Assembly (NCBI RefSeq): GCF_030269645.1
Contig: NZ_BSTR01000032.1
Coordinates: 1-64,000, forward strand
Direction of reading: 5' to 3'
DNA length: 64,000 nucleotides
Origin: Actinokineospora sp. NBRC 105648
Lineage (GTDB): Bacteria; Actinomycetota; Actinomycetes; Mycobacteriales; Pseudonocardiaceae
Positions 1 through 17,406 of this stretch are shown here, one piece after another (within the stretch, counting starts at the first letter, position 1; the number at the start of each line of letters is the position of its first letter). A program made the translations under genes and the position numbers. The notes below the pieces were generated by a model. It did no database searches. It was given only the letters and a program-made list of their open reading frames with translations, and was not told the DNA's origin.

Positions 1-692
1 CAGCACCCGGTCCGGTCGTGTCCGGGGGCGACCGCCGCCGGGGCGGGGCACCCGGATTCCCTCGATCACCGCCACGAACCGCGGACTGTCACCCCGCTGC
101 CCCGCGGTGAGCAGCAACGACAACGGCCTGCGCCCCTGCTCGCACGCCAGATGCAGCTTGCTGGTCCACCCACCCCGCGACCGGCCCAGGCCATGATCGG
201 CCGGCTCGTCCCCACCGGCCGGGGTATCGGGTGGTTCGACCCGCAGATCCCCCTTTTCCTGGCCCCCGCGGCATGCTGGTGGGCGCGGGTGATCGTGGAA
301 TCCACGCGGACGTCCCAGACAACCTGCCCGTCGGCGTCGGCACGGGCCTGCAACGCGGTCAGGATCACCCGCCACACCCCGGCCCGCTGCCACCGACGGA
401 ACAACCCGTAGACGGTCTGCCACGGGCCATACTCGGGCGGAACGTCCCGCCACGGGGCACCCACGCGGACCCGCCATCGGATCCCGTCGATCAACTGTCT
501 TCTGCTCCACTTCGGCGGGCGCCCGGGCTTGCGACCGGCAGGCAGGAGTGGCTGCAGCACAGCCCACTGCGCGTCGGTCAGATCGGCCCGGCCCGTCGCC
601 GCTACGCTGGCCACGAGGTCTCCGGTATTGGGGTTCGCTTGGTCGCTTACCCGTCTACCGGAGACCTCGCCACGTCCCGGGCACCGACACAC
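1..692 (-). CDS. IS5-family transposase, two overlapping frames, partial
   Basis: DDE transposase of an IS5-type element. The first frame (from about 692) carries the N-terminal DUF4096-like domain, with LTDAQWAVLQPLLP and a WRDVPPEYGPWQTVY motif, then VDSTITRAHQHAAGARKRG. The DDE-domain continuation (DHGLGRSRGGWTSKLHL, then LLLTAGQRGDSPRFVAVIEG) is in the -1 frame. The switch coincides with a run of four A and five G on the coding strand (positions 249-257), the usual kind of slippery site for programmed -1 frameshifting in this family. The gene continues past position 1. The start is uncertain: a GTG giving VSDQANPNTG is as plausible as the far upstream ATG. A broken copy cannot be excluded, but the conserved second frame argues for programmed frameshifting. 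Confidence 0.8.
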
Positions 693-717
693 CCAAGATC
701 CACATCTGAAACACGGC
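1..717 (-). mobile_element. IS5-family insertion sequence, cut by the left window edge
   Basis: The right part of an IS5-family element, containing the 5' half of its transposase. The outer end is taken as 717 because transposase-type sequence stops there and the next four bases (718-721, CTAG) fit the YTAR-type targets duplicated by IS5-group elements. The end reads GGCCGTGTTTCAGATG on the minus strand. The other end lies outside the window, so neither the inverted repeats nor the target duplication can be checked. CTAG overlaps the TAG stop codon of the neighbouring gene, so the element sits at its 3' end without shortening it visibly. Confidence 0.75.
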
Positions 718-1662
718 CTAGACCGCCTTGCCGCATTGGCCGACGGGCAGTTGGTTGAGGCCCCGCGCGGTGATGGCGGGTCGGGCCTGGGGCCCGCAGA
801 CCCACCCGACGTCCGTGCCGTCCGGGCCCGGGATGCCGGTGCCGAAGAGCGGCTGGAGCGCCGCCGGGACGCCGCCGTTGCCGCGCGGTCCGCCGTTGGT
901 GTCGCGGACGACCACGTAGACCCGAAGCGGTGCCCGCACCAGGTCCCACAGGCGGACCGGTTTCGCCGGGGGCAGCAGCTTGTACGCGCTCTGCGCGAAC
1001 GGCCCTATCCGGTTGGGGGCGCCCGCGAACGGCGCCGGGTCGTTCTCCGCTACCTCGGTGACGCACGCGCCGGGCGTGGTCACGTTGATCTGGGCCAGGA
1101 ACGCCCGCCTGGTCCCGGTGTCGGCGCGGGGCAGGACCGGTTCGATGGTCTGACCGGACTGCCCGGCCCGCAGCTGGTGCCAGGTGGTCGCCGTGCACTC
1201 GAAGACGCGTTTGAGGTCGGCGGCCAACAGCAGGCCCGGCGAGTTCGTGGTGGGGGCCGTCACGTAGCCCACCCAGTCGGAGGCGAACGGCAGGTGCAGC
1301 ACGCCGAACCCCGGATCGGCCACGCTCAACGAGTCCACCCTGCGGACGAAGTCGACCGTGCTGCCTGCTCGGTTGAGCTCGGCGACCCCCGCCGCGGTGC
1401 CACCCGGGCGGTCGATCGGGTCGGCCCCGTCGCGCGGGACGATGGGCGAGGGCCCCGCGGCGTCCCAGTTGGCGAGGAGGGCGGCAGGCGCACCGCCGTT
1501 GTAGGCGAGGGCCAGCGCGTCGAACAGCGGTTGGGCCTGCCCACCCCCGACACCGACCACGTCGTCGGCGTCAGGGAGCGCGACCGGGTCAGCCGCGGCG
1601 GGGACGGCGAACGCGAACGCGCACACCGACAGCAAAGCGGCTCTGCGCAACAGGGAACGCAC
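718..1662 (-). CDS. Secreted PstS-like substrate-binding protein (paralogue 1)
   Basis: A 314-residue exported protein. An N-terminal signal peptide (MRSLLRRAALLSVCAFAFAV, cleavage near AAAD) is followed by a PBP-like domain related to actinomycete PstS-type phosphate-binding proteins: DDVVGVGGGQAQ near the N-terminus, then PFASDWVGYV and the conserved cysteine stretch FECTATTW. GTG start preceded by GGAG. It lies 42 nt downstream of a clear paralogue at 1705-2655 in the same direction, so the pair probably arose by duplication and is co-transcribed. No ABC permease or ATPase is nearby, so a role in import is not supported by context; a ligand-binding or surface role is possible. Its TAG stop is also the inferred IS insertion target, but its C-terminus aligns in length with the paralogue, so it looks intact. 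Confidence 0.7.
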   Translation of the reverse strand: MRSLLRRAALLSVCAFAFAVPAAADPVALPDADDVVGVGGGQAQPLFDALALAYNGGAPAALLANWDAAGPSPIVPRDGADPIDRPGGTAAGVAELNRAGSTVDFVRRVDSLSVADPGFGVLHLPFASDWVGYVTAPTTNSPGLLLAADLKRVFECTATTWHQLRAGQSGQTIEPVLPRADTGTRRAFLAQINVTTPGACVTEVAENDPAPFAGAPNRIGPFAQSAYKLLPPAKPVRLWDLVRAPLRVYVVVRDTNGGPRGNGGVPAALQPLFGTGIPGPDGTDVGWVCGPQARPAITARGLNQLPVGQCGKAV

Positions 1663-1704
1663 GGGGACGGCTCCTTCGTCAGAGGTTCACTGGTTCGTCA
1701 GGGT

Positions 1705-2655
1705 TCACTGGGCCCGGCCGCAGGACTGCGCGGCGGTCAGCTGGGTGAAGGCGTTGCTGGCGATGGGCGCGAGAGCGGTCGAACCGCAGATCCACCCCGC
1801 GCCCACGCCGGTGGGGGTGGGAAGACCGTTGCCGAGGAACGGTTGCAGGGAAGCCTCGACACCACCGTTGGTCGGGCCGCCGCCGTTGACGTCACGGACC
1901 ACGGTGAAGACCTTGTACAGAGCGGAGAAACCCGTGGTGTTGAGCTGAACGGGTTTCGGTGACGGCAACAGCGCGTGGGCGTGCTCGGTGAACGGGCCGA
2001 TGCGGTTGGGGTTGCCCGAGATCGGCGTCGGGTCGTCCGCGGCCACGTCGACCACGCACGCCCCCGGGGTGGTGAGGCCGATCGCGGTGAGGAAGACCGG
2101 GCGGGCGCTGTCCGAGCCCACCGGCAGCACCGGTGCGATGGTCGCCGACGACCCACCCGGGCGCACGGCGCTCCACGTCGTGGCCGTGCAGTTGTAGATC
2201 GAGAACAGCTCGGTGGAGCTGAGGTTCACCGGGGCGTTCGTGGTGTTGGCGACGGCGTACCGGACGACATCGCTCGCGAACGGCAGGTACAGCACCGGTT
2301 CGGCGGCGTCGACCCGCTTGCGCGACGACCGCGCGAAGTTCGTCGCGGTACCCGCGCGCTTGAGCTCGGCGATCCCCTGGTCGGAGTTCCGCGGCCGCGG
2401 AATCGGCGCGGCGCCCTGCCTCGGCGTGATGGGCGACGGACCATCGGCGTCCCACGAGGCGACCCGGACGACGGGATTGCCTGCGTTGTAAGCGATCGCG
2501 AGGGCGTTCAGCGCCCCCTGCGCGGACCGGGCACCGGTACCGACGGCGTCGTCCGCGTCGGGGAACGGACTCCCCGGCGGGTCGGCGCCCGCGGGTACGG
2601 CCATGAGCACGACCGCCGCCACGACGGCCAAGCCCCGGCGGAACGTTGCGCGCAT
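1705..2655 (-). CDS. Secreted PstS-like substrate-binding protein (paralogue 2)
   Basis: A 316-residue exported paralogue of the downstream gene. It has a signal peptide (MRATFRRGLAVVAAVVLMAV, cleavage near AGAD), then the same blocks: DDAVGTGARSAQ, AIAYNAGNP, PFASDVVRYAVA, YNCTATTWSAVRPGG and NPNRIGPF. The ATG at 2655 is chosen because AGGAG lies eight bases upstream; a GTG six codons earlier is in frame. It is the first gene of a two-gene unit. A tandem 18/17-bp repeat about 50 bases upstream may be its operator. The ligand is unknown; the PstS resemblance suggests an oxyanion, but that is only a family inference. Confidence 0.7.
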   Translation of the reverse strand: MRATFRRGLAVVAAVVLMAVPAGADPPGSPFPDADDAVGTGARSAQGALNALAIAYNAGNPVVRVASWDADGPSPITPRQGAAPIPRPRNSDQGIAELKRAGTATNFARSSRKRVDAAEPVLYLPFASDVVRYAVANTTNAPVNLSSTELFSIYNCTATTWSAVRPGGSSATIAPVLPVGSDSARPVFLTAIGLTTPGACVVDVAADDPTPISGNPNRIGPFTEHAHALLPSPKPVQLNTTGFSALYKVFTVVRDVNGGGPTNGGVEASLQPFLGNGLPTPTGVGAGWICGSTALAPIASNAFTQLTAAQSCGRAQ

Positions 2656-2703
2656 CAGCGAACTCCTCGTCACCGGACCGCGTGCCGGGGGCAGATCGCC
2701 GCC

Positions 2704-2738
2704 GGACAGGTTGTCATTGCGGGACAGTTGTCATTGTG
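2704..2738. promoter_or_regulatory. Tandem direct repeat upstream of the PstS-like pair
   Basis: Two adjacent near-identical units, GGACAGGTTGTCATTGCG and GGACAGTTGTCATTGTG, lie about 50 bases upstream of the start at 2655. Phasing of about 18 bp and position in the promoter region suggest a two-site operator. Each unit contains an imperfect inverted ACAG...TTGT arrangement. No other repeat of this unit was noticed in the window. Confidence 0.4.
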
Positions 2739-2739
2739 G

Positions 2740-3223
2740 GATAAGGGGAATCGCCCTTCCACCCCCGCACGGGTCAAGTTCGCGCACCGACCCGGTGAAC
2801 CAGCACCCAACGGTCACCGCCGTTAGCCGCCGAACCCCGCTACCGTGGGCGACGGACCCAACGGGCAACCCGAGCGCCGCCCGGGGCCCGCGGCCAAGTG
2901 ACTTCGTGGTCTTGTGCCGGGGGTGTCGCGGCCAGACCCGGGGAGTGGGCGGGCAGATGCGCGGACCGTCCTACTCGGACCAACAACGACCGACCGGTCG
3001 CACGGCGAGAGCGGCGGCACGCGGCTCGGTCTCGACGACCGCGCGCCGTGTACGCGCGCGGCCCGACGACGATCACGTCTTCGGCGCCACCGGCGCCGGG
3101 GAAGAGGGAGCGGCCCCGTCCAGCTGATCGGGGGGCTGTCAGAAGACTTGGCCGGGGCCGCTACCCAGCAGGTCGCACCACGCGGTCGTGCTGTTACACG
3201 CCCGTCTTAACCGGGATTTCCCA
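2740..3223. other. Intergenic region without recognisable gene
   Basis: About 480 bases between the upstream side of the PstS-like pair and the 3' end of the aspartokinase. Open frames here are short and have arginine/proline-rich translations typical of GC-rich noncoding DNA. I see no gene, tRNA or convincing terminator. Confidence 0.6.
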
Positions 3224-4462
3224 TCACCACCCGCGGCCGCTGCCCGCGTACACCACGGCCGGGTCGGAGCTGCCCAGCTCGAACGCCTCGTGCAGGGCGC
3301 GGACCGCCCGGTCGAGGTCGACCTCGCGGCACAGCGCGGAGATCCGCAGCTCAGAGGTGGTGAGCAGGTCGATCGCCACGCCGTGGTCGGCGAGGACCGC
3401 GCAGAAGGTGGCCGCGACCCCCGCCTTGACGCCCGCGCCGACCACCGAGATCTTGCCTATCCCGGCGTCCGCCGTGACGCTGGTGAAACCGAGGTCGGCG
3501 CGGTGCGCGCGCAGGGCGGACACCGCCGCCTCCGCCATCGCCCTGGGCACGGTGAACGACAGGTCCGCGCCGCCGCGCACCGGCATGTCCACCTCGACCT
3601 CGGTGTCGGCGAGCACCCGCAGCACGCCCGCGACGTGCCCGGGCAGCCCGGCGACGGTGACCAGGGCGGCGCCGCGGTCGTGCGCGATGGCGGTGACGGC
3701 CGGCTTCTCCACTGTGGACTCCTCCGGGTCGCCGGCCACCAGGGTGCCGGGGTCGGTGGTGAACGACGAGCGCACGTGCAGCGCCACGCCGTGCCTGCGG
3801 GCGTACTCGACCGAGCGCGGCATCAGCACCTTGGCGCCGTTGGCCGCCAGCTCCAGCATCTCCGCGTAGGACACCCGCTCGAGCAGCCGCGCGGTGGGGA
3901 CGATCCGCGGGTCGGCCGAGCAGACGCCGTCGACGTCGGTGTAAATCTCGCACACGTCGGCGCGCAGGGCGCAGGCCAGCGCCACCGCGGTGGTGTCCGA
4001 GCCGCCGCGGCCCAGCGTCGTGACGTCGTCGGTGTCCTTGGACAGGCCCTGGAAACCGGCGACCAGCACGACCTGGCCGCGGTCGAGCTCCTGGCGGACC
4101 CGGGTCGGCAGCACGTCGACGATGCGGGCCCGGCCGTGGTCACCGGTGGTGAACACCCCCGCCTGCGGGCCGGACAGCGAGCAGGCGGGCAGGCCGAGGT
4201 CGGTGAGCGCGATCGCCAGCAGGGCGTTGGCGACGCGCTCGCCCGAGGACAGCAGCATGTCCAGCTCGCGGGGCGGGCCGGGCGCGCGGGACACCCGGTT
4301 CGCCAGGTCGAGCAGCTCGTCGGTGGTGTCGCCGATGGCCGAGGCGACCACCACCACGTCGTGCCCGGCCGCCCGGGTCTCGGCGACCCGCCGGGCCACC
4401 CGCAGGATCCGCTCGGCGCCACCCACCGAGGACCCGCCGTACTTCTGCACCACGAGGGCCAT
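3224..4462 (-). CDS. ask: Aspartate kinase, diaminobutyrate-pathway copy
   Basis: Phosphorylates L-aspartate to 4-phospho-aspartate, the first step towards aspartate semialdehyde. The 412 residues show the amino-acid kinase N-terminus MALVVQKYGGSSVG, the substrate region TTLGRGGSDTTAVALA and the dimer-domain marker EIYTDVDGV, followed by two C-terminal ACT domains (about 265-400) containing TSELRISALCREVD. The ATG at 4462 fits the family N-terminus and lies one base after the stop of the aminotransferase gene, so translation is probably coupled. Aspartokinase for general metabolism usually sits beside asd; here it is third in an operon with a diaminobutyrate aminotransferase and a Pls-type synthetase, suggesting a dedicated second copy for precursor supply. 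Whether it escapes lysine/threonine feedback cannot be judged from sequence alone. Confidence 0.9.
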   Translation of the reverse strand: MALVVQKYGGSSVGGAERILRVARRVAETRAAGHDVVVVASAIGDTTDELLDLANRVSRAPGPPRELDMLLSSGERVANALLAIALTDLGLPACSLSGPQAGVFTTGDHGRARIVDVLPTRVRQELDRGQVVLVAGFQGLSKDTDDVTTLGRGGSDTTAVALACALRADVCEIYTDVDGVCSADPRIVPTARLLERVSYAEMLELAANGAKVLMPRSVEYARRHGVALHVRSSFTTDPGTLVAGDPEESTVEKPAVTAIAHDRGAALVTVAGLPGHVAGVLRVLADTEVEVDMPVRGGADLSFTVPRAMAEAAVSALRAHRADLGFTSVTADAGIGKISVVGAGVKAGVAATFCAVLADHGVAIDLLTTSELRISALCREVDLDRAVRALHEAFELGSSDPAVVYAGSGRGW

Positions 4463-4463
4463 G

Positions 4464-5813
4464 TCAACCGCGTCCCGGGTGCGGCAGCCGCTCGATCTCG
4501 GCCACGATGATGTCGCAGGCCAGGTCGACGACCTCGGCGGTGACGTTGAGCGGCGGCAGCAGCCGCACCACCCGGTCGTCGCGGCCACCGAGCTCGATGA
4601 TGAGGCCCTGGCGCAGCGCGCGGTCGCGCACCGTGGCGGCGTCCGCGGGGTGCACCAGCTCCACCCCGCACATCAGGCCCAGCCCGCGCACGTCGTGCAC
4701 CAGCGGGTGGCCGGCGACGACCGAGAGCCTGCGCGCGACCTGCTCGCCGCGCAGGCGGACGTTGGTGAGCACGTCGTCGCGGCGGATCACCCGGATCGCC
4801 TCGGTGCCCGCGGCGAAGGCGAGCTGGTTGCCGCGGAAGGTCCCGGTGTGCGCGCCGGGCTGCCAGGTGTCGAGTCTCTTGTCGTAGAGGATCAGCGCGA
4901 CCGGCGCGCCGACGCCGCTGAGCGCCTTGGACGCGACGACGACGTCCGGCTCGATGCCGTACTGCTCGAAGGCGAACCAGGTGCCGGTGCGCCCGCAGCC
5001 GGTCTGCACCTCGTCGACGATCAGCGGGATGTCCAGCTCGGCGGTCACCGCCCGGATCCGGCGGACGAACTCCGGCCGGGCGGGCACCACGCCGCCCTCG
5101 CCCTGGACCAGCTCCATGATCACCGCGGCGGGCCTGGGCAGGCCGCCGTTGGGGTCGCGCAGCGAGCGCTCCAGGTACTCGACGCAGTTGGTCGAGCAGG
5201 TGTCCGGGCGCAGGCCCAGCGGGCAGGCGGCGCACGAGGAGAACGGGAAGAAGTGCACGCCGGGCATCGGGTTGGCCACCGGGGCCTTCTGCGACACCAG
5301 CCCGGTCAGCGCCATCGCGGCGTGCGTGGCGCCGTGGAAGCCGCCCTGGAACGAGACGATGTCGCCGCGCCCGGTGGCGGTCTTGCACAGCTTGATGGCC
5401 GCGTCCACGGCGTTGGCGCCGGTCGGGCCGCAGAAGTGCACCCGGGTCCGCTCGCGCATGGTGGCGGGCAGCATGGACAGCTGGGCCTCGAGGAAGGCGT
5501 CCTTGGCCGGGGTCGGGAAGTCCAGGCCGTGGGTGAGCACGCCGAGCTGCTCGACCACGGCCGCGACCAGCTCGGGGTGGTTGTGCCCCAGGGAGAGCAC
5601 CCCGGCCCCGGCCAGGAAGTCGATGAAGACGTTGCCGTCGACGTCGCGGACGAAGCTGCCCTGGCCGCGCTCGATGGCGATCGGGAGGTTGCGCGGGTAG
5701 CTGCGGGCGTTGGACTCGGTGCGCTCCTGGCGGGCGAGGTAGCGCGCGGACTGCTCGCCGGGCAGGTTCCCGTCGACGTGCGGCCTGCTCAGCTCGACGA
5801 TCATGTCGGACAT
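4464..5813 (-). CDS. dat: Diaminobutyrate--2-oxoglutarate aminotransferase
   Basis: A PLP-dependent class III aminotransferase, 449 residues, that converts aspartate 4-semialdehyde plus glutamate into L-2,4-diaminobutyrate. Visible are the N-terminal [20 protein letters not shown], the cofactor segment [30 protein letters not shown], the [13 protein letters not shown] motif and the Schiff-base lysine in VVASKALSG. The cysteine-rich segment [19 protein letters not shown] is typical of the Dat/PvdH branch. It lacks the ectA and ectC neighbours that an ectB would have. The ATG at 5813 is preceded by GGGAG; it starts 17 bases after the synthetase gene and stops one base before the aspartokinase ATG. 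EctB and Dat share the same reaction, so the assignment to polymer supply rests on the operon. Confidence 0.92.
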
Positions 5814-5830
5814 GTGGTGGCTCCCGTGGG

Positions 5831-8800
5831 TCACGGCAGGGTGGACAGGGACGACGGGGACGCCGCGGGATCGACCGCGGTGGACCCGGTTGTGCGGTGC
5901 TCGGGTGGGACGGGACCGGGTGGCGCGGGCTCGGTCGAACCCGCGGGCTCGAGCGCCGGGGAGTCGGCCGGGGCGAGGGCGGCGTGGCCCGGGGTCAGCT
6001 CGACCGCCGGGTTGCCCGCCCAGCGGGCGCCCGGGTCGACCTCGCCGCCCTTCATCAGGAACGAGTCGGCCTCGAGCACCGCCCGGTCGCCCACCCGCAC
6101 CCCGTAGTGGGCGAACGCGGCGACGCCGAGGGTCACCCCCGCGCCGACCTGGACGCGGTCGGACTTGAAGGTGCCGTCCTCCAGCGAGTGCCCCTGGATC
6201 ACGCTGCTCGCGTTCAGGACGGCGTCGGCGCCGACGGCCACCAGGGACTTCTCCGGGATGCCGCAGCCGTCGTCGAAGACCCGCGGGCCCATCCGGACGC
6301 CGAGCAGCCGCCAGATCAGCACCTTGAACGGGGTCCCGTTGAACACCGCCAGGTAGCGGCCCGCGCTGAGCTTCCAGAAGCGCTCGTGCCGCCAGAACAC
6401 CGGGTCGTAGATGGAGCAGAACCTCGGCCGCAGCGCGCGGAACCCGGTCACCGCGCGCTCGACGAACACGCCGAAGGCGACCACGAACAGGTAGGTGGCC
6501 AGCAGCCCGGCCGCCGTGGCGAGGGTGCCCAGCCGCGGGTACAGGCTCGCCGCGATCAGGTTGATCACCACGACCGCCCACAGGTCGACGCACCGGGTGA
6601 GCAGGAACAGCGCCACCGTGGCGGTGTTGTGCCGGTTCTTCGCCCGGAGCAGCCGCCGGAACTCCGCGCCGGTCTTGAGGTGGTCGAACGAGGCGTCGCG
6701 CCGCACCGAGCGCGGGATGGCGAACGCGGGCGAGCCGAGCAGACCGGTGTCGGCGCGCACCTCCCCGTCGAGCGGCACCATCACCTTGGTGGCCAGCAGA
6801 ACGTTGTCGCCGGTGCGGCCGCCCGGCGGGTAGACGATGTTGTTGCCGAGGAAGTTGCGCGGGCCGAGTTCCGTGCGCCGCACCCGGAACGCGGTGCCGG
6901 AGTAGTCGGCGTTCACCGTGGACAGTCCGTCCGAGACCATGGTGCCGCTGCCGATCGTGGTGAGCAGCGGCGAGTCGTGCTTGACGTCGATGCCGAAGTT
7001 GGACCCGGTCTGCACGATGGTGCCCAGGTCGTACCCGAGCAGCCGCAGGTAGTGCACGATGTAGGAGCTGTCGCCGAAGAGCTGGGTGTAGGTCCGCAGG
7101 TTGCTCAGCCGGGTCACCGTGCGCTGCAACGAGTACCGAACGCCGTAGAGCGGGTACACCGCGTCGGGGACGAGGAAGGCGCTGAGCAGTCGCGGCACGG
7201 TGAACGCCAGCACGAGTCCGGCCAGCAGACCGCCGAGGTAGAGCACCGCCACCCCACCGAGCTGGACGGCGTAGAACAGCGGGCTGCCCGGGTCGACCGG
7301 CATCGCGCCGCGCAGCAGCTCGGTCACCACGTCGCCGACGAGCAGTCCCAGCGGGAGGTAGATCGCCGCCGTGTTGAGCAGTTGGGTGAGGCAGTAGACG
7401 AACCGCCGCCACCGGCTCGGCGGGGCCGAGATGTCCGCGCGGTAGTCCACTGTGGCCGGTTCGGCGGGCGAGCCGTGCCAGCTCTGCCCGGCGGGGACCG
7501 AGGCGCCCGCGGGCAGGCAGGACGCGTGCCCGAGCTGCGCGTGGTCACCCAGCTCGGTGTCGATGTCCAGGGTGCTCAGCTCACCGACGAACACCTCGCG
7601 GCCCAGGGTGACCGGACCGGTGACGACGCGACCGGCGTGCGCCCGGTAGCAGCTGAGGAGGGTGTCCTTGCGCACCACCGAGCCCGCGCCGATGGTGAGC
7701 AGGTCGGTGCACACCGGCACGTTCGACGACAGGACGATCACCCCCGGGCCGACCTTGGCGCCCAGTGAGCGCAGGTAGAGCACGTAGAGCGGCGAGCCGA
7801 CGAACAGCCGGATCGGGTTGAACCGGGTGAGCGAGCGCACCACCCAGAACCGGAAGTAGGCCAGGCCCCACAGCGGGAACTCGGTCGCCCGCCACCGTCC
7901 TATCAGGACCCATTTGAGGATCACCGGCACCGTGCAGGCGACCAGGAAGCCCACGCCGCCGAAGGCCACGGCCCGCAGGTAGGTCGCCACGACGCCCGAG
8001 GCGCCGACCACCCACCCGATCCCGATGTCGAGCACCAGGGCCGAGAAGTACAGGTACGCCAGGAAGAACGCCGCCTGCGCCGCCCCGCACAACAGGTAGC
8101 GCCACCCGCGCACGGGCTCGACCTGTTCCACCGCAACCGTTTGCACCTGCTCGACGCGGGCGGGCAGCGCAGCGGCGAGCGACCGGACCGTCGGGTGGTC
8201 GTAGACCTGGCGCATCGACAGCGCGGGCAGGTCGTCGCGCCTGCGCACCCGGGCGCAGAACCGGGACATCAGCAGCGAGTCGACCGCGAGCTCGTCGAAG
8301 AAGTGCCCCTCGACCGACACCTGGTCCAGGCCCAGCACCCGCGCCAGCTCCGCCGCCAGTGCCTGTTCGGCGGGGGTCTCGGGCGCGACGTGGTGGGCGC
8401 TCGCGGCGCGGCGCGGACCGCTGGGCGCGGGCAGGTTCTTGCGGTCGGCCTTGTTGCTCGGCGTCATCGGGATCAGGTCGAGCCGCTCGAGGTAGGCCGG
8501 GACCATGTAGGCGGGCAAGCGTTCGCGCAGCACGCCCAGCAGCTCGTCGTGGTCGAGCGGATCGGCGTCCTCGCGCAGCGTGTAGAAGGCGACCAGCTCG
8601 ACGGTGTCCGGGTCCGGGCGGTGGGTGTCCACCACCGCCTGGGCGATCCCGGGCACGCGCAGTAGCACCGACTCGATCTCGGTCAGCTCGATCCGGTAGC
8701 CGCGCACCTTGACCTGGGTGTCGATCCGGCCCAGGTAGTGGATGTTGCCGTCGACGCCGACCCGGCCCAGGTCGCCGGTGCGGTAGATCCGGCCCGACGG

Positions 8801-10003
8801 GTTGTTGTCCAGGCTGAGGAAGTCGTCGATGAACGCGCGCCCGGTGAGGTCGTCGCGGTTGAGGTAGCCGCGGGCCAGCCCGATGCCCGCGATGCCGATC
8901 TCCCCGGTCTCCCCGCGCGGCAGCGCGTGCGCCCGCTCGGGGTCGAGGATCACGACCGAGTAGGTCGGCAGCGGCAGGCCGATCGTCACCGGCCGGTCCG
9001 GGTCCAGTGTGGTCCAGGTGGCGGTGACGGTGGCCTCGGTGGGGCCGTAGACGTTGAGGAACCGCCTGCCCGGCCGGTGCCACCGGGAGATCAGGTCCTG
9101 CGGGCACGCCTCCCCCGAGACCAGCAGGAAGCGCAGGTCGGGCAGGTCGTCCTCGACGGTGGCCAGCAGGGTCGGCACGCAGCACAGCGCGGTGATCCCG
9201 TTGGTGTGCAAGAACTCCCAGAGCTCGTGCCCGACCAGCGCGGTCCCGCTGGGCCGCGGCACCAGGGTCGCGCCGACCAGCCACGGCACCCAGATCTCCT
9301 CGACGGAGAAGTCGAAGGCGATCGTCATGCCCTGGTAGACCCGGTCGTCCTGGTCGAGCCCGTAGACCTCGCCCGCGACCCGGACGAAGTTGCAGATGCC
9401 CGCGTGCTCGACCGCGACGCCCTTGGGGCGGCCGGTGGAGCCGGAGGTGTAGACGATGTAGCACAGGTCGTCCACCGGTTCGCCGCGCTCACCGGGGCTC
9501 AGCGGCAGCTCGCTGAGCTCGTCGACGGGTTCGGTGTCCACACTCGACGCGGCCAGCCCGGGCAGCCCGCCCGCCAGGTGCGCCTGGGTCAGCACCAGGC
9601 GCACGTCGGCGTCCTGGGCGATGTAGCCGATCCGGTCGGCCGGGAAGGCCACGTCCAGCGGCACGTAGGCGGCGTTGACCTTGAGCACCGCCAGCATCGC
9701 CACGTAGGACCGCCAGGCCTGGTCGAAGAGCAGGCCGACCCGGTCGCCGGACCGCACGCCGCGGCGCAGCAGGTGCCGCGCGAGCTGGTTGGCACGCGCG
9801 TCGAGCTGCGCGTAGGTCAGCCGGACCGGACCGGCGTCCACGGCGAGCCGGTCGCCCGCCGCGGCGCACCGGTCGCTGAATAAGTGCTCCAGCCGCTCCC
9901 CCGGCCGCCACCGGGCGCGGTGGCTGGCCCCCGGGTCGACCAGGACGGTCCCGGTGTCGTCGGCGCGGACCTGGGCGACCGCCACCGACTCCGGCTTGAT
10001 CAT
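5831..10003 (-). CDS. Pls-type membrane-bound NRPS (cationic homopoly-amino-acid synthetase)
   Basis: A 1390-residue single-module synthetase with the full architecture of epsilon-poly-L-lysine synthetase (about 1320 aa). The adenylation domain (about 45-525) shows [50 protein letters not shown] and the PSNKADRK lysine motif. The thiolation domain has its serine in [10 protein letters not shown] (Ser576). There follow three pairs of membrane segments separating three soluble hexapeptide/acyltransferase-like domains. At the pocket positions equivalent to GrsA 235/236/239 it reads D231-F232-E235; an acidic third residue also occurs in lysine and ornithine codes, consistent with a basic substrate. 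With dat and ask downstream, L-2,4-diaminobutyrate is the likely monomer. The ATG at 10003 (MIKPES) has AGGG about ten bases upstream; an in-frame start 17 codons earlier is less likely. No polymer-degrading enzyme is adjacent. Confidence 0.9.
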
Positions 10004-10489
10004 GAATAATGTTCCCTTCCTCGACCGGGAATTACCAGGTTCACCACTCGACATTCACAGCGATTCACAGTTACGCGGATGTCGGCGATACCGGAAAGAT
10101 AGCTGTTGTTAAGCAATGAGAGGTAGGCCAGTCGAGGTAGAAGAATTCACAACCGGACACCCGAAGGGAGTAGTCCAACCGGGAAGCGACCATTCCGGAC
10201 CACCGGCACCAATGTCCGCATACGAAATCTTGTTCGTCGAATGGACAGCTACATAACATGGCGGCATAGCGCGCGGTGATACCCACGTCCGACCGGCCGG
10301 ACGTATCGGCCCGAATGAACCAACTCGGTCAGCCGTCTGCCCATAATTCGGCGTATTAGCGGGTCGACACTAGAGGATCTGCCCGAATTGTGGACACCGC
10401 GCACCGTCGAAGTGCGCACCGGCACTGGATGCGCGAAGATGCCTCGGGCGCCGTGGGCGGGAAATTGTGCAGTCTCGCGAAAATGCGAC
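10004..10489. promoter_or_regulatory. AT-richer upstream region of the synthetase operon
   Basis: About 490 bases visibly richer in A and T than the surrounding coding DNA, lying between the synthetase start and a terminator hairpin. It should contain the operon promoter, but no -10/-35 pair can be assigned with confidence. GGGTCGACACTAG at 10361-10373 recurs with one change at 10490-10502. Small open frames here (for example 10071-10286 on the minus strand) have no recognisable family or ribosome binding site. Confidence 0.5.
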
Positions 10490-10515
10490 GGGTCGACACC
10501 AGCAGGTGCCGACCC
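10490..10515 (-). terminator. Intrinsic terminator after the DUF2630 gene
   Basis: An 11-bp stem with one mismatch (GGGTCGGCACC against GGTGTCGACCC on the minus strand) closing an AGCA-type tetraloop. It sits 16 bases beyond the DUF2630 stop. A TTTT follows a few bases after the stem on the minus strand. It separates the DUF2630 unit from the synthetase promoter region. Confidence 0.55.
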
Positions 10516-10531
10516 GTCGAATAGTGGACTA

Positions 10532-10777
10532 CTACTGTCGGTATCCCTCGACCTCGGCCGCGGGCCGGGCACTGGCCTCATCGGGGTTCTGCCCGGCCTC
10601 CCGACGGGCCCGCCGCTGGCGCAGCAGGTCCCAGCACTGGTCCAGCGCGACCTCCAGGGCGTCGAGCCGGGCCTGCTCCTCCTGCGGGGTCACCGCGCCG
10701 TGCTGGGCGCGCTCGCGCAGGGAGTGCTCCTCGGCCACCAGGGCGCTGATTCGGGTGTGGATCTGCGTGTCGTCCAT
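10532..10777 (-). CDS. DUF2630 family protein
   Basis: A small cytoplasmic protein of 81 residues found widely in actinobacteria and of unknown function. It is mostly alpha-helical and charged. The diagnostic block LDQCWDLLRQRRARREAGQN and the terminal EVEGYRQ match the DUF2630 signature. The start MDDTQIHTRIS matches the family N-terminus; a start four codons upstream is in frame but not conserved. It is monocistronic or follows the lipoprotein gene by 40 bases, and ends at a hairpin. Confidence 0.85.
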   Translation of the reverse strand: MDDTQIHTRISALVAEEHSLRERAQHGAVTPQEEQARLDALEVALDQCWDLLRQRRARREAGQNPDEASARPAAEVEGYRQ

Positions 10778-10817
10778 GCCCGCCACCATAGGCGCTGGGC
10801 ACCGCGCTGGGCCGCGC

Positions 10818-11714
10818 CTAGCTGCCGGGCACCGCGATGGGCCGCTGCGGCGCCACCTGCGGCGGGTCGGTCCGGTAGGTGTCCAGCACCGCGGGCGCGA
10901 GCTCGGCGGCGGTGCCGCAGTCGGGGGCGCGCACGCGGATGACGAGGTCGCCGAGGTCGGGGAACGGCGAGCCGGACGGCCCGGCGGTCCACGCGTACTC
11001 GCAGTCGCGGGCCCTGGTGATCGTGACCTCCCGGCCGTTCAGCCGGTCCTGGCTGGGCGCGGGGCGGCCGTAGCGGAGCTGCACGAGGTAGACCTGCTCC
11101 CAACCGCCGGGGACCGCGCGGCGGGCTTGGCAGTTGTCCAGCCCGTAGTTGGCCTCGTCGAACCGCAGCTCGAGCCCGTCGAGCCGGTTGCCCGCGGCGC
11201 GGTGGAGCAGGTCGCAGGCGTCCCGGCGGGAGTCGGTGCTCACGCTCTCCGGCCGGGCGAGCCTGCCCACGACGGTCTTGGCCGCGGCGGTGGCGTCGTC
11301 GCAGCGGTTCCGCTGGGTGCGCTGCGACGTGCGACCGGTCTCGCTGGTAACGCGGATCGCCAGGTCGGCGCCGACCGGGATGGCGACCTGGCACCCGGTG
11401 TCGAGGGACCGGCGGTAGCCGCGGGCCCCGTCGAGCGCGATCTCCTCGTGGGCGTCGCGGGTGGCCTGGTCGAACTGGGCACCGACGACGAGGAAGAGGT
11501 AGTCGGCGCCGCCCTGGCCCTCGAACCGGCAGCGGTGCGGGCCGAGCGCGACCTGGTTCAGGCCCGCGGTGGCGCCGAGGAGGCACGGGTCGAGGGGCCG
11601 CAGGGCGGCGGTGACGGCGGAGAGCGGGCGGTCGTCGCTCGGCGCCCGCGGGCCCTCGGGCGCGGCGGTGCAGCCCGCGACGAGGGCCAGGGCGAGCAGC
11701 AGCGACGATCTCAC
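10818..11714 (-). CDS. Lipoprotein, two DUF3558-like repeats
   Basis: A 298-residue predicted lipoprotein. The signal peptide MRSSLLLALALVAGC ends in a lipobox (LVAGC), so it should be anchored outside the membrane. The mature part contains two similar halves, each with a conserved pair of cysteines (CLLG...HRCRF and RDACDLL...NCQAR), a PxxxxLDPC-type motif and GADLAIRV/GDLVIRV strands, resembling the actinomycete DUF3558 fold. No enzymatic motif is visible; ligand binding or an envelope role is possible. It starts with ATG and precedes the DUF2630 gene. Confidence 0.65.
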   Translation of the reverse strand: MRSSLLLALALVAGCTAAPEGPRAPSDDRPLSAVTAALRPLDPCLLGATAGLNQVALGPHRCRFEGQGGADYLFLVVGAQFDQATRDAHEEIALDGARGYRRSLDTGCQVAIPVGADLAIRVTSETGRTSQRTQRNRCDDATAAAKTVVGRLARPESVSTDSRRDACDLLHRAAGNRLDGLELRFDEANYGLDNCQARRAVPGGWEQVYLVQLRYGRPAPSQDRLNGREVTITRARDCEYAWTAGPSGSPFPDLGDLVIRVRAPDCGTAAELAPAVLDTYRTDPPQVAPQRPIAVPGS

Positions 11715-11866
11715 CGGATCAGGGTAGTGGGAGCCGCCGGTGACCGGGAGCGGTCACGCGTTCCGACTACAGTGGACGGCGAGAACTGTTGGTACGGCGG
11801 CATTCCACGGCTCCGAGCGGCACTCCGACTGGCGCGTCCGACCGGCGGACGGGCGCGCCGCTGTGC

Positions 11867-12378
11867 TCAGTCGGGGAAAGCGGCGACGGAGACCTCCCGG
11901 CTCAGGGGCCGCGCGAGGTAGCCGCCCGTCACGGGGACGAAGACGCCGTGACGGGCGCCGGGGTCGCCCACTGGGTCTGCAGGTCGTCGTGCCGGATCGC
12001 GGTGATCGTGGCGTCGCTGGTGGCGTAGGCGAGCCCCGACGCGTGCTCGAAGTACTCCGAGGGCAGCGAATCGCGGTGGGCGGAGGGGGTGGGGTCGCGG
12101 GGTGAGTGCAGGGCGGCCGAGTGGCCCCAGGTGACGAGCATGTGCACCTCGCCGTTGAGGCGCACGGCCGTGCAGGTCCCGGTCCCGTCCCAGAGCACGG
12201 ACCCGTCGCGGAGATCGATGACGTGGAACTCACCGCCGGTCTCGTTGTCCGCCACGACCACCGCGGTGGTGTCGTCGAGCCGGTCGCCGCCCTCCCGCAC
12301 GAGGGTGCCCTCCTGGACGGTCACCGCCTCGGGGGACCGCCACAGCTCGGCGCCGGTTCCCCGCTCACCCGAACAAGG
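11867..12378 (-). pseudogene. Relic of a PQQ-type beta-propeller protein
   Basis: A frameshifted, 5'-truncated fragment. From 12378 a frame reads GTGAELWRSPEAVTVQEG, then VIDLRDGSVLWDGTGTCTAV and ASGLAYATSDATITAIRHDD, which are PQQ/WD-like blades. It stops at 11929. In the adjacent frame the propeller continues immediately as HGVFVPVTGGYLARPL and ends in SVAAFPD at 11867. A single-base indel near 11950 therefore explains the break. Upstream the frame is closed by a TGA at 12379 with no start or ribosome site, so the N-terminal blades are missing. A GTG at 12324 could in principle start a 131-residue product, but that would begin inside a blade. Confidence 0.6.
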
Positions 12379-12388
12379 TCAACCCCGA

Positions 12389-12796
12389 CTAGTACTGGTC
12401 CCCGCCGAAGAACATCTCCTCGATCTGGTCCGCCGTGCCCGCCAGCAGCTCCAGCGGGTCGGTGAACTCGTGGATGTCGAGGTCCTTGAGCGGCAGCGAG
12501 TGCCGCAGCACGACGTGCTCGCCCATGATCGCCGCGCCGCAGGCGATCGAGGACAGGCCGATCTCGGTGAGCAGCGCCTTGAGGTCGGCGCGCTCGACCA
12601 GGCCGACCGGGGTGGCCAGCTGCACCCACTCGTGCTTGGCGTCGAGGATCTCGCGGGCCAGGATGATGATCTGGGTGCGCTCGTCCTCCTCGTTGACGTC
12701 CTCGAAGTTGACCTGGATGCGGATCTCCTCGTCGTTCTCGGAGATCACCTCGTACTCGCCGCGCACGAACCGCGCGAGATCAGCCCACGTAGCCAT
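12389..12796 (-). CDS. YbjN/CesT-like small acidic protein
   Basis: A 135-residue, strongly acidic soluble protein (MATWADLARFVRGEYEVISE at the start, EEMFFGGDQY at the end). The alternating strand/helix pattern, with DEEIRIQVNF followed by TQIIILAREI, resembles the type III secretion chaperone-like (YbjN/CesT) fold common in actinobacteria, where it is not linked to secretion. It overlaps no neighbour and ends ten bases before the propeller relic. Function unknown; a chaperone-like or partner-binding role is only a fold-based guess. Confidence 0.6.
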   Translation of the reverse strand: MATWADLARFVRGEYEVISENDEEIRIQVNFEDVNEEDERTQIIILAREILDAKHEWVQLATPVGLVERADLKALLTEIGLSSIACGAAIMGEHVVLRHSLPLKDLDIHEFTDPLELLAGTADQIEEMFFGGDQY

Positions 12797-12920
12797 GCGA
12801 TGAGCGTATCGCCGAGTCGATCACCCACGATCGGGTGAAGGGACCCCGGGCGGACGTAACGCGGGTCACACCCATTCGGACGTCACTCGCAAGGGGCTGA
12901 CCGAGCGAGCGGAGTGCGAC

Positions 12921-13304
12921 ATGGAATGGCTCAACACCGGCATCCGCGCCCTGATCACGCTGGCCCTGGTGGGCGTGGTGATGTGGTGCCTGATCCTGGT
13001 CTCCAACCAGCTGTTCGCGGGCGCGTTCACCGACAGCGCGGGCAACACCGTCGATCCCCACCAACGGGCGAAGGACCTGCTGCTGGTGGTGATGCCGCTG
13101 GTGACCACCGTGCTCGGCTTCTGGTTCGGCACCCGGGACCAGGACCGGGTGCGCGCCTCGGCGGCCGTCCAGGTGGAGCAGGCCGAGAACCGGGCCGCGG
13201 CGGCCATCGACAAGCTGACCACCGTGACCGCCGTGTCCACCGAACCCGACCTGCTCCCCAGGGCGCGGACCCTGCGCCCGGACCTGTTCGCGCCGAACAG
13301 CTAG
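12921..13304 (+). CDS. Small membrane protein with two membrane segments
   Basis: A 127-residue protein. A first membrane helix (about 8-30, LITLALVGVVMWCLILV) and a second (about 52-68, LLLVVMPLVTTVLGFWFG) are separated by a short hydrophilic loop. The C-terminal tail is soluble and helical, with RVRASAAVQVEQAENRAAAA resembling a short coiled coil. No family was recognised. It is the only plus-strand gene between 3.2 and 20.6 kb and converges with the SDR gene, whose stop is ten bases away. Confidence 0.65.
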   Translation: MEWLNTGIRALITLALVGVVMWCLILVSNQLFAGAFTDSAGNTVDPHQRAKDLLLVVMPLVTTVLGFWFGTRDQDRVRASAAVQVEQAENRAAAAIDKLTTVTAVSTEPDLLPRARTLRPDLFAPNS

Positions 13305-13314
13305 TCCAAGGCGA

Positions 13315-14103
13315 TCAGTCGAAGGCGATGGTGGGCAGGTCGACCGCGCTGGCGCCCGCGTCCGCGGTCACCACCGCGCCGCTGACGATCGCGGCGTCGG
13401 AGGAGGCCAGGAAGGCGATCACCGAGGCGATCTCCTCGGGCTCGGCCGGGCGGCCCAGCGGGGTGTTCTCGGTGACGAGCTCGTAGGCGGCCGCCCGGTC
13501 GATGCCCTTGCCCGAGCCGAGCTCGTCCATCTGCTCGTCGGCCATCGGGGTGCGCACCCAGCCCGGGCACACCGCGTTCGCGCGCACGCCGTGCTTGCCG
13601 TAGTCGCGGGCGATCGAGCGGGTGAGGCCGATCAGCCCGTGCTTGGTGGTCACGTAGCCCGCCACCGCGGGCCCGGAGAACAGGCCGGCGAGCGAGGACA
13701 CCAGCACCACCGAGCCGCCGCGCACCGACAGCGCGGGCAGCGACTCGCGGATGGTGACGAACGCGCTGGTCAGGTTGACCTCGATGGCCTTCTGCCAGCC
13801 CGCGTCGTCAGTGTCGGTAGCTGTGCCCAGGCCGTGGCCGCCCGCGTTGGCGACCACGTTGTCCAGCCTGCCGAACCGCTCCAGCAGCGCCGCCACGATC
13901 CCGCGCACCGCGGTCGAGTCCGCTGCGTCGCCGGGGAGCACCAGGGCCAACTCGCCCAGTGACTCGGCCACCTCGCGCAGCGGGGCCTCGCGCCTCCCGG
14001 TGAGCACGACCCGGCCGCCCTCGGCGACCAGCCGACGGGCCGTGGCCGCGCCGATTCCCGTGCCCGCCCCGGTGATCAGGGTGACCGTGTCCGCGAACCT
14101 CAT
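13315..14103 (-). CDS. SDR-family oxidoreductase
   Basis: A 262-residue short-chain dehydrogenase. Visible are the cofactor loop TLITGAGTGIGAATAR, an arginine after the second strand (LTGRREAP, suggesting NADP preference), VVANAGG, the catalytic serine in VLVSSLAG, the YVTTK active site and the PGWVRTPM segment. The ATG at 14103 overlaps the stop of the preceding SDR gene by four bases (ATGA), so the two are co-translated. As last gene of the homoprotocatechuate operon it may act on an aromatic side-chain alcohol or a ring-cleavage intermediate, but the substrate is not predictable. Confidence 0.85.
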   Translation of the reverse strand: MRFADTVTLITGAGTGIGAATARRLVAEGGRVVLTGRREAPLREVAESLGELALVLPGDAADSTAVRGIVAALLERFGRLDNVVANAGGHGLGTATDTDDAGWQKAIEVNLTSAFVTIRESLPALSVRGGSVVLVSSLAGLFSGPAVAGYVTTKHGLIGLTRSIARDYGKHGVRANAVCPGWVRTPMADEQMDELGSGKGIDRAAAYELVTENTPLGRPAEPEEIASVIAFLASSDAAIVSGAVVTADAGASAVDLPTIAFD

Positions 14104-14759
14104 GCGCCAGTTCCTCTCGTCTTGATCGTCTGTCCACTCAGGTGGGCGCCCTCCGGACCCGCCAGCCAGTGCACGGCCGCGGCGATGTCCTCGGGCACCA
14201 GGAAGTCCGCGCACTCCGGGGCGACCGCACCGACCACGATCCCCAACGGCGCGACGTCGCGCGCCACCGACGCGGTGAACGCGCGCATCGCGCCCTCGAC
14301 CGCGCTGTGGTGGGCCAGGTGCGCGCAGTCGGCCGAGATCGACACGATGACCCCGCTCCGCTGGCCGCGCATCGCCCGCAGCGCGGCCCGGGTGCCGTAG
14401 AAGGTCCCGTCCAGCCGCAGCCCGAGCGCCGAGTGCCACTGCTCGTCCGTGATGTCCATTGTGGACCCCGGGGCGGCCGGACCGCAGTCCCAGCCGCCCG
14501 CGTTGTTCACCAGCACGTCCAACCGCCCGAAGTGCTCGACCACCGCGGCGACCGCGGCGTCGACCTGGGTCGGGTCGGCCACGTCGGCCCGCACGACCAT
14601 GCCGTGCCGCAGCACCCGGGAGGCCAGCTCGGCCGCCGTGGAGTCCCCGTCGAGCACGGCCACCGTGGCGCCCTCGTCGTCGAAGCGCCGCGCGATCGCG
14701 GCCCCGACGCCCGAGCCCGCCCCGGTGACCAGTGCCACCCTGCCGTCCATGCTGCCCAT
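14100..14759 (-). CDS. SDR-fold protein with altered catalytic residues
   Basis: About 219 residues with a normal SDR nucleotide-binding start ([19 protein letters not shown]) and [10 protein letters not shown]. Where YxxxK is expected, after the serine strand [13 protein letters not shown], the sequence is HHSAVEG, so the tyrosine is histidine and the lysine glutamate. Catalysis by the standard SDR mechanism is therefore unlikely. It may be a non-catalytic partner of the downstream SDR, to which it is coupled by an ATGA overlap, or use different chemistry. The start at 14759 (MGSMDG) is chosen because the Rossmann strand follows directly; no clear ribosome site is seen, and 14750 is an alternative. 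Confidence 0.75.
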
Positions 14760-14858
14760 AGCCGCGCACGCTAATTCGCCGTTGGCCGGTTTCCGACGCG
14801 GCGAAGTCCACTGTGCGCAGCCGTACAACGAATGTTCGCCGTCGGGCAACTACAGCGA

Positions 14859-16358
14859 TTACCTGCCGAAGCGCGGTGCCGCGAGGTCCCCGACGGCCAC
14901 GTGCACGGCGCGCACGTCGCTGTAGAAGTCGATGCTGTGCACGCCGCCCTCCTGGCCGACACCGCTGGCCTTGATGCCGCCGAACGGGGTGCGCAGGTCC
15001 CGCACGTTGTGCGAGTTGATCCACACCATGCCCGACTGCACCGCGCGGGCGACCCGGTGGCCGCGGGCGAGGTCGCTGGTCCAGACGTAGCCCGCCAGGC
15101 CGTACTTGGTGGCGTTGGCCAGCTCGACGCCCTCCTCCTCGGTGTCGAACGGGGTCACCGCGACGACCGGGCCGAAGATCTCCTCCTGGAAGATCCGGGC
15201 GTCCGGGCGGACGTCGGCGAACACCGTCGGCTGCAGGAAGTTGCCCTGCGGCAGGTGCTCCGGGCGGCCGCCACCGGCGACCAGGCGGGCCTCGCGCTTG
15301 CCGATCTCGACGTACTCCAGCACCCGGGCGTAGTGCTCGGGGTGGATGAGCGCGCCGACCTCGGTGGTCGGGTCGGCGGGCATGCCGACCCGCACGGCCG
15401 AGGCGCGCTCGGCCAGCGCGGCGACGAACCGGTCGTAGATCCCGCGCTGGACGATGACCCGCGAGCTGGCCGTGCAGCGCTCGCCGTTGAGGGAGAACAC
15501 GCCGAACACGGCCGCGTCGACGGCGCGCTCGAAGTCGGCGTCGTCGAAGACCACGCACGGGGACTTGCCACCGAGCTCCATCGACACCTCCTTGAGGTTC
15601 TCCGCCGAGGACCGCATGATGATCTGCCCGGTGCCGCTCTCGCCGGTGAAGGAGATCCGCGGCACGTCGGGGTGCGCGACCAGGGCGGCGCCCGCCTGCT
15701 CGCCGATGCCGTGCACCAGGTTGAACACGCCGTCGGGCACGCCCGCCTCGGCCATGATCTCCGGCAGCAGGCTGGCCGAGAGCGGGGACCACTCGGCGGG
15801 CTTGAGCACCACGGTGCAGCCCGAGGCCAGGCTGGGCGCCAGCTTCCAGGTCTCCAGCATGAACGGGGTGTTCCACGGCGTGATCAGGCCCGCCACGCCC
15901 GCGGGCTGGCGGATCGCGTAGTTCACCTGCTTGTCGCCGACGATGTAGGCCTCCTCGTGCAGGGCCACGATCACGTCGGCGAAGTAGCGGAAGTTCTCCG
16001 CGGCGCGGTGCGCCTGGCCGCGGGCCTGGGTCACCGGCAGGCCGGTGTCGAAGGTCTCCAGCTCGGCGAGCCGCTCGGCCCGGACCTCGATGCCGTCGGC
16101 GATCTTGTTCAGCACCTTGGCGCGCTCGCGGGCGGTCAGCCGCGGCCACGGGCCGTCGGTGAACGCGCGCTTGGCGGCCGCGACCGCCAGGTCGATGTCG
16201 GCGGTGTCACCGGCGGCGACCCGGCCGTAGACCTCGTTGGTGACCGGGTCGGCGACCGGGAAGGTCGCCCCGTCCACACTGGACGCGGGCTTGCCGTCGA
16301 TGAAGTGCCGCAGGTCGCTGGGCAGATCGGCCGGACGGGGGACGGCTGACTCGGTCAT
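14859..16358 (-). CDS. hpaE: 5-carboxymethyl-2-hydroxymuconate semialdehyde dehydrogenase
   Basis: A 499-residue NAD-dependent aldehyde dehydrogenase that oxidises the ring-fission semialdehyde of homoprotocatechuate to 5-carboxymethyl-2-hydroxymuconate. Family marks are TPWNTPFMLETWKLAPSL, FTGESGTGQ, the general-base glutamate in SMELGGKSP and the catalytic cysteine in SLNGERCTASSR (near residue 300). The short loop after NGERC and the NSHNVRDLRTPFGG end segment resemble HpaE-type enzymes. It lies in an operon with the ring-cleavage dioxygenase and an HpaG-like protein, which is the main reason for the specific name. It starts with ATG, 87 bases after the DapA-family gene. Confidence 0.85.
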   Translation of the reverse strand: MTESAVPRPADLPSDLRHFIDGKPASSVDGATFPVADPVTNEVYGRVAAGDTADIDLAVAAAKRAFTDGPWPRLTARERAKVLNKIADGIEVRAERLAELETFDTGLPVTQARGQAHRAAENFRYFADVIVALHEEAYIVGDKQVNYAIRQPAGVAGLITPWNTPFMLETWKLAPSLASGCTVVLKPAEWSPLSASLLPEIMAEAGVPDGVFNLVHGIGEQAGAALVAHPDVPRISFTGESGTGQIIMRSSAENLKEVSMELGGKSPCVVFDDADFERAVDAAVFGVFSLNGERCTASSRVIVQRGIYDRFVAALAERASAVRVGMPADPTTEVGALIHPEHYARVLEYVEIGKREARLVAGGGRPEHLPQGNFLQPTVFADVRPDARIFQEEIFGPVVAVTPFDTEEEGVELANATKYGLAGYVWTSDLARGHRVARAVQSGMVWINSHNVRDLRTPFGGIKASGVGQEGGVHSIDFYSDVRAVHVAVGDLAAPRFGR

Positions 16359-16445
16359 GGTGGTGCTCCTCGTCGGAATGACACGGGCGTGTCGGAGGGT
16401 GAGCTGGCGGCGGTGGGGAACGGGGGTGCTGGTGGGGCTGGGTGC

Positions 16446-17369: not shown

Positions 17370-17406
17370 CTGGGTCTCCAGGCTTGGGACGCCGACTCGG
17401 GCGGTG

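Follow-up and report, generated by a model that had tools for sequence, protein, structure and literature searches.

What polymer would be made by a three-gene operon, pldA-dat-ask, on contig C32 of the 8.43 Mb Actinokineospora genome? The initial annotation had read it as an operon for gamma-poly-L-2,4-diaminobutyrate (gamma-poly-L-Dab). Gene linkage, pocket code, clade and the lack of a racemase back this reading, and we consider it very probably correct. The features under discussion lie in the window, the whole stretch of 64,000 nucleotides that was analysed:

3224..4462, minus strand: ask, dedicated aspartokinase, 412 aa, with gaps of 7 residues across the C. glutamicum Q298-S301 loop and of 3 residues at ~273-277
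4464..5813, minus strand: dat, L-2,4-diaminobutyrate--2-oxoglutarate transaminase, 449 aa
5831..10003, minus strand: Pls/PosA-family single-module synthetase (pldA-like), 1390 aa, pocket code DFECLSVVTK
6005..8089, minus strand: C-terminal polymerising part of the synthetase (TIGR02353); hydrophobic blocks span residues 640-704, 875-946 and 1127-1186
8165..8365, minus strand: carrier domain (domain match), residues 547-613, VDSL motif at 574
8450..9877, minus strand: adenylation domain, AMP-binding and C-terminal part (PF00501, PF13193), residues 43-518
10143..10170, minus strand: upstream element CTCCYTTYRGGT-N7-TGTGAATTC, conserved before the operon with and without synthetase

Operon layout and synthetase

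All three genes are encoded on the minus strand. As initially annotated, and in agreement with both coordinates and family models, the Pls-type synthetase is followed by dat and then by ask, with intergenic gaps of 17 bp and 1 bp. Most code-matched relatives show this gene pairing as well (see below), which argues against a chance arrangement. The reading frame of the synthetase is open to 10054. We placed its start at the ATG at 10003 because this codon is preceded by the Shine-Dalgarno-like GAGGAAGGG and because it aligns with the start region of congeners. Contig C27 carries a housekeeping ask directly beside an asd-family gene. A scan for promoter and terminator consensus sequences around the operon found none, PADLOC returned no result on three neighbour genes, and the genes that follow ask in congeners yielded no assignment. 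Downstream of ask, window positions 66-2673 hold two paralogous PBP-like proteins (~50% identical), followed by a match to an IS5-type transposase where the contig ends.

The synthetase matches the Pls/PosA model TIGR02353 over positions 2-695 of 695 with 706 bits (NCBIfam cut-off 423), and its A-T architecture with the TIGR02353 C-terminal part is that of a Pls/PosA-family synthetase. Enzymes of this family have six TM helices, paired around three soluble domains. Each of the three hydrophobic blocks that follow the carrier domain in the window synthetase has room for two helices, as judged from hydropathy, which does not separate single helices. The pocket code is D-F-E-C-L-S-V-V-T-K, with positions placed by motif alignment and numbered in what we take to be GrsA numbering. 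According to the available text of PMC10522769, PDAP and PDAB synthetases carry Phe at the second pocket position, PosA carries Met and Pls carries Ala. The window synthetase has Phe there, in line with a PldA-type enzyme. The D-F-E assigned initially to positions 235/236/239 was recovered in the motif alignment, but the choice of Glu239 as the informative residue did not hold, since Glu239 is common to lysine-type and Dab-type enzymes; the informative one is Phe236. According to the same excerpted source, Dab, Dap and beta-lysine synthetase homologues are hard to tell apart by alignment (PMC10522769).

The nearest named relatives of the synthetase are found in Actinokineospora terrae, diospyrosa and globicatena (69-71% identity). 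The genome also encodes a second Pls paralogue (L122 7673-11662, on contig C34) with the lysine-like code DAESIGTVVK, so that two polymers may be produced by this strain. This code is also present in five other genomes of the genus (G008, G010, G011, G014, G015).

In the proposed route, the operon aspartokinase, with part of its lysine/threonine feedback pocket gone, would drive the conversion of aspartate to aspartyl phosphate, which housekeeping Asd would reduce to the semialdehyde for transamination by Dat to L-Dab. The synthetase, with its short pocket (Phe236, Glu239), would adenylate L-Dab and load it onto its own carrier domain, and its membrane part would then use the side-chain amine to link the units, giving a cationic polymer with gamma bonds. 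Substrate, stereochemistry, gamma linkage, export and antimicrobial action of the polymer are thus predictions read from the genes.

Monomer and handedness

Relatives of the window synthetase were sought in 84,980 species genomes, and the best 79 loci of 174 relatives, picked by similarity to it, were kept with stretches of up to 8 kb on each side. Seven of the 79 have no adenylation part in the frame used and so yield no code; in four more the final code position is unsure. Among these best 79 of 174, the code DFECLSVV[TS]K is present at 59 loci (one Ser variant included). A Dab-forming aminotransferase is found at 48 of the 59, in 37 cases dat-type (at least 60% identity) and in 11 EctB-type (at least 50% identity to the aminotransferase of L028); the other 11 loci have neither type in the stretch, some being cut by contig ends. 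An aspartokinase gene is present at 34 of the 59. In a family sample, dat was found at 6/6 other DFECLSVVTK loci, at least one of which duplicates a locus of the 79.

Two of the 11 divergent aminotransferases (L028 and L058) score above the EctB cut-off, and ectC was absent from the stretches of all 14 loci with an EctB-type aminotransferase (the 11 together with L073, L079 and L080). Because of this score and this absence, the EctB-type enzymes look like dedicated recruits, that is, a putative second solution of precursor supply at Dab-code loci (L026, L028, L031, L035, L042, L045, L055, L058, L061, L069 and L084).

A quick FastTree phylogeny was built on 114 rows, 20 of them with odd composition, which remained of 129 synthetase rows once 15 had been removed as duplicates, fragments, A-domain-only hits or, in most cases of that type, lysine-type rows. 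It placed the window synthetase inside a supported 17-row clade in which all rows are dat-linked. The racemase-linked synthetases formed one distant clade, and the rows linked to Dap genes fell within an 18-row clade that itself lies among Dab-type rows. Taken together, gene linkage, the pocket code and the tree position support Dab as the predicted monomer.

The nesting of the Dap-linked clade is one of several observations that would suit a synthetase making beta-poly-L-2,3-diaminopropionate (PDAP), or one taking both Dap and Dab. Phe236 is common to Dap and Dab synthetases (PMC10522769, as excerpted), and the Dap enzyme of S. albulus is described as weakly activating Dab in the part of PMC4668381 available. 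That paper gives NjxA and NjxB as the Dap-forming pair, for which we take the PALP-type and ornithine-cyclodeaminase-type genes that are both present at L070, L078, L088, L089 and L095 (families confirmed for one each). All five loci lack dat. The two rows among them with a readable code, L070 and L078, carry Ala or Cys at position 301, where the window has Ser. A further locus with a partial PALP (NjxA-like) neighbour, L171, has the odd-looking code DCQCLSVVT- and Ser at 301 as in the window, which speaks for the Dap reading and puts this locus outside the 301 rule. No NjxA/NjxB-like match was found within window positions 1-20000, and dat and ask fit Dab only. On the absence of Njx-like genes from that stretch, and more weakly on the code, against which L171 speaks, we rejected Dap as the monomer and give a PDAP or mixed product only a slim chance. 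A D-configured product, gamma-poly-D-Dab, would call for a racemase elsewhere or a D-selective pocket. Racemase-linked loci do exist in the same genus, and there dat-ask stands apart from that synthetase. However, no DapF-like racemase gene adjoins the window synthetase, and a PF01678 profile search of the genome returned two stretches that are the two halves of a single 283-aa DapF on contig C9, with no second DapF-like gene as a candidate PddB; PF01678 is also the family of the DapF-like neighbour of one racemase-linked synthetase. With no PddB, L-Dab is the expected monomer. Furthermore, the racemase-linked synthetases carry DFECLSCVSK in 4/4 cases, differing from the window at 322 and 331, and are only 35-40% identical to the window enzyme. 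The missing racemase and the residues at 322 and 331 thus support a predicted L rather than D monomer; on racemase and code the D-Dab product was rejected, and it is the least probable of the readings weighed here. L-code and D-code synthetases occur together in 0/74 genomes, but for the genus by itself, with 6 and 2 genomes of 16, non-overlap would arise by chance with a probability of 0.375, so this figure proves nothing.

There is also a very small probability, between those of the two preceding readings, that dat and ask supply ectoine synthesis or some other peptide with Dab in it, the synthetase being unrelated or silent. An ectoine-branch aminotransferase had been raised as an objection in the initial annotation itself. 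The ectoine route also passes through Dab, and ectoine-synthase matches are present in the genome, on contigs C34 and C62, none of them at the operon. On C34, ectC adjoins an EctB-type gene and a PhyH-family gene. The ectB frame there ends early, so that dat might stand in for it. Nevertheless, dat scores 449 bits with TIGR00709 (cut-off 401.6) and 376 bits with the ectoine EctB model, below its cut-off of 552 (both NCBIfam), and by these scores it is assigned to another subfamily than the C34 EctB-type gene. With 17 and 1 bp between the genes, dat and ask are tied to the synthetase, and dat lies near the synthetase at 37 of the 59 code-matched loci (best 79 of 174 relatives). On the EctB score and the EctB-type/ectC pair of C34, with the reservation of the shortened ectB frame, the ectoine branch was rejected for dat. 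At the C34 ectoine locus (L123 7481-10690), the ectB frame matches models only as far as 378-382 of 412-425, and the match to the PhyH family extends over two frames, possibly reflecting broken genes or assembly faults.

Gamma-poly-L-Dab is thus the preferred product. Several other loci of the survey are described here in their own right. L044 (Pseudonocardia xinjiangensis) combines a Dab-type synthetase at 3289-8118 and dat with a second synthetase frame at 9935-12901 and a PALP-type gene, and two synthetase frames lie side by side at L047 and L082. The Dap-gene-linked synthetases of L088, L089 and L095 are split, with the C-terminal part and the adenylation part in separate frames. The code DFEY[LIV]GTVTK occurs in eight rows (L176, L177, L178, L180, L182, L185, L186, L195) and DGESVSVVNK in three (L181, L189, L190), with no dat in the stretches fetched, which were mostly short. 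A Pls-type synthetase of genome G042 (L196 2433-6788) has the code DSECYGGVTK, that of a Bdellovibrionales enzyme described as most active with L-arginine in the available part of PMC10522769.

The dedicated aspartokinase

The ask product scores 568 bits with the best aspartate kinase model, just under its cut-off of 585, and lies above the cut-offs of three other such models; it is a predicted monofunctional aspartokinase. Among solved structures, its best relatives are 3ab4 and 3aaw, which we take to be the C. glutamicum enzyme. Of 16 catalytic-domain positions, 15 match the reference or the housekeeping form, the exception being Cys at 180. The 7-residue gap in the regulatory part was placed at 298-304 by MAFFT and at 299-305, with Arg at 298, by HMMER, and S301 is missing in both alignments. 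In addition to the 3-residue gap, the protein has Val at 279 and Ala at 361, while S381, I375 and E382 are kept.

Residues of the Q298-S301 region are kept in 11/11 housekeeping aspartokinases and lost in most of 33 cluster ones. Each housekeeping enzyme is the top-scoring aspartokinase of its genome, the set being drawn from the own genome and ten genomes of named loci; the cluster set includes the window enzyme. L149 and L154, third-copy aspartokinases that both lack the QN motif, stand outside the counts. Residues were kept as follows (housekeeping; cluster).

Positions named in the excerpted text of PMC10464499:
A279: 11/11; 4/33
Q298: 11/11; 8/33
T361: 7/11; 8/33
S381: 11/11; 24/33
I375: 10/11; 10/33
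I272: 0/11; 2/33
E382: 11/11; 12/33
Further positions:
N299: 11/11; 5/33
S301: 11/11; 8/33
T308: 11/11; 4/33
G359: 11/11; 8/33
N374: 11/11; 2/33
G345: 10/11; 30/33

Q298G heads the list of deregulating changes of the C. glutamicum aspartokinase in the text available of PMC10464499. On the aspartokinase tree the cluster label needs two changes and the Q298 state four. If the housekeeping form is ancestral, the two label changes imply that aspartokinases were recruited to clusters at least twice; we claim nothing beyond two recruitments because long branches meet there on the tree. From its residues, we infer that the operon kinase may be feedback-insensitive. Note, however, that the ectoine-linked Ask_Ect, which likewise lacks the conserved feedback residues, is nevertheless described as inhibited by threonine (PMC5924519, in excerpt), so lost residues are no proof of an unregulated kinase. 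Ask_Ect is, like the operon enzyme, a dedicated aspartokinase, but it belongs to the ectoine pathway; the two are likened here by description.

The locus across the genus and known systems

Among 16 genomes of the genus, the own genome (G000) included, a close synthetase is present in six (69-73% identity in the other five). Two more, G002 and G006, have a 37-39% identical, racemase-linked synthetase with the D code, located elsewhere in both genomes. At the syntenic locus, beside the same aldehyde dehydrogenase, these two keep dat (82%) and ask (74-75%) together with the upstream element and without an L-synthetase (L156 10382-13061 in G002; L157 8338-10981 in G006). A tblastn search of both stretches gave no convincing L-synthetase remnant; the best E values were 0.75 and 0.008, and the match with 0.008 lies far from dat. 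The dat of both genomes groups with that of the genus. The flank tree leaves the order of the three lineages open, as does the outgroup-rooted dat tree at the same fork, and the unrooted dat and ask tree joins the window with G002/G006 against the other five (100/100). The exact pattern of the upstream element occurs in 4/16 genomes (G000, G002, G006, G014), with a single match per genome, each at this locus, and no control match; it misses the other four locus carriers, each of which differs in some letter. Neither the element nor a shared operator was found before the racemase-linked synthetases of G002 and G006.

The plain reading of these sequences is that the L-synthetase was probably lost in G002 and G006 and the supply genes kept, loss being favoured over late gain mainly by parsimony. 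The dat-ask pair of these strains would then feed the D-polymer. A wider reading, to which we give slightly less than an even chance, is that the genus switches polymer handedness by synthetase exchange alone: dat-ask and the upstream element would stay at the ancestral locus, the L-synthetase would be cleanly lost, and a D-synthetase and racemase elsewhere would use the same supply. On the same tentative reading, housekeeping-type aspartokinases were recruited at least twice and lost their feedback pocket, a natural repeat of the desensitisation selected by breeders in lysine producers.

A cluster with its own aspartokinase, highlighted at first annotation, is not unusual and has published precedents, so the pldA-dat-ask arrangement is not new. 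In the text available of PMC8117764, pldA is linked with dat and ask in Streptomyces celluloflavus, a producer of gamma-poly-L-Dab; as in the window, a Pls-type synthetase is accompanied by linked dat and aspartokinase and by no racemase. The host genus differs, and PldA (WP_110952768) and the window are likened by published description rather than by sequence or gene order, S. celluloflavus lying outside the best 79 of 174 relatives. In Streptoalloteichus hindustanus, pddA-pddD is described for gamma-poly-D-Dab (PMC8225329, in excerpt). There too a pathway-specific aspartokinase, PddD, and a Dab transaminase, PddC, feed a Pls-type synthetase, but that cluster has the racemase PddB and the window has none; the racemase-linked synthetases compared here, of which the S. 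hindustanus one lies outside the named loci, differ from the window in code and identity as given above. The PDAP synthetase of Streptomyces albulus (PMC4668381) shares the architecture of the window enzyme and Phe at the second pocket position (PMC10522769), with Dap supply genes NjxA/NjxB where the window has dat and ask, as far as these excerpts describe it. On the kinase-pocket pattern in such clusters and on a synthetase-less supply locus, no statement was found in the extracts of the literature searched.

With this operon, Actinokineospora becomes a predicted source of a cationic polymer like those used as food preservatives, and the rule that combines pocket code with neighbour genes helps to separate L-Dab from D-Dab synthetases. 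The cluster aspartokinases are candidate feedback-resistant enzymes for engineering. Together, the synthetase-less supply locus and the aspartokinases with worn feedback sites would offer natural test pairs for the evolution of both polymer handedness and precursor flux.
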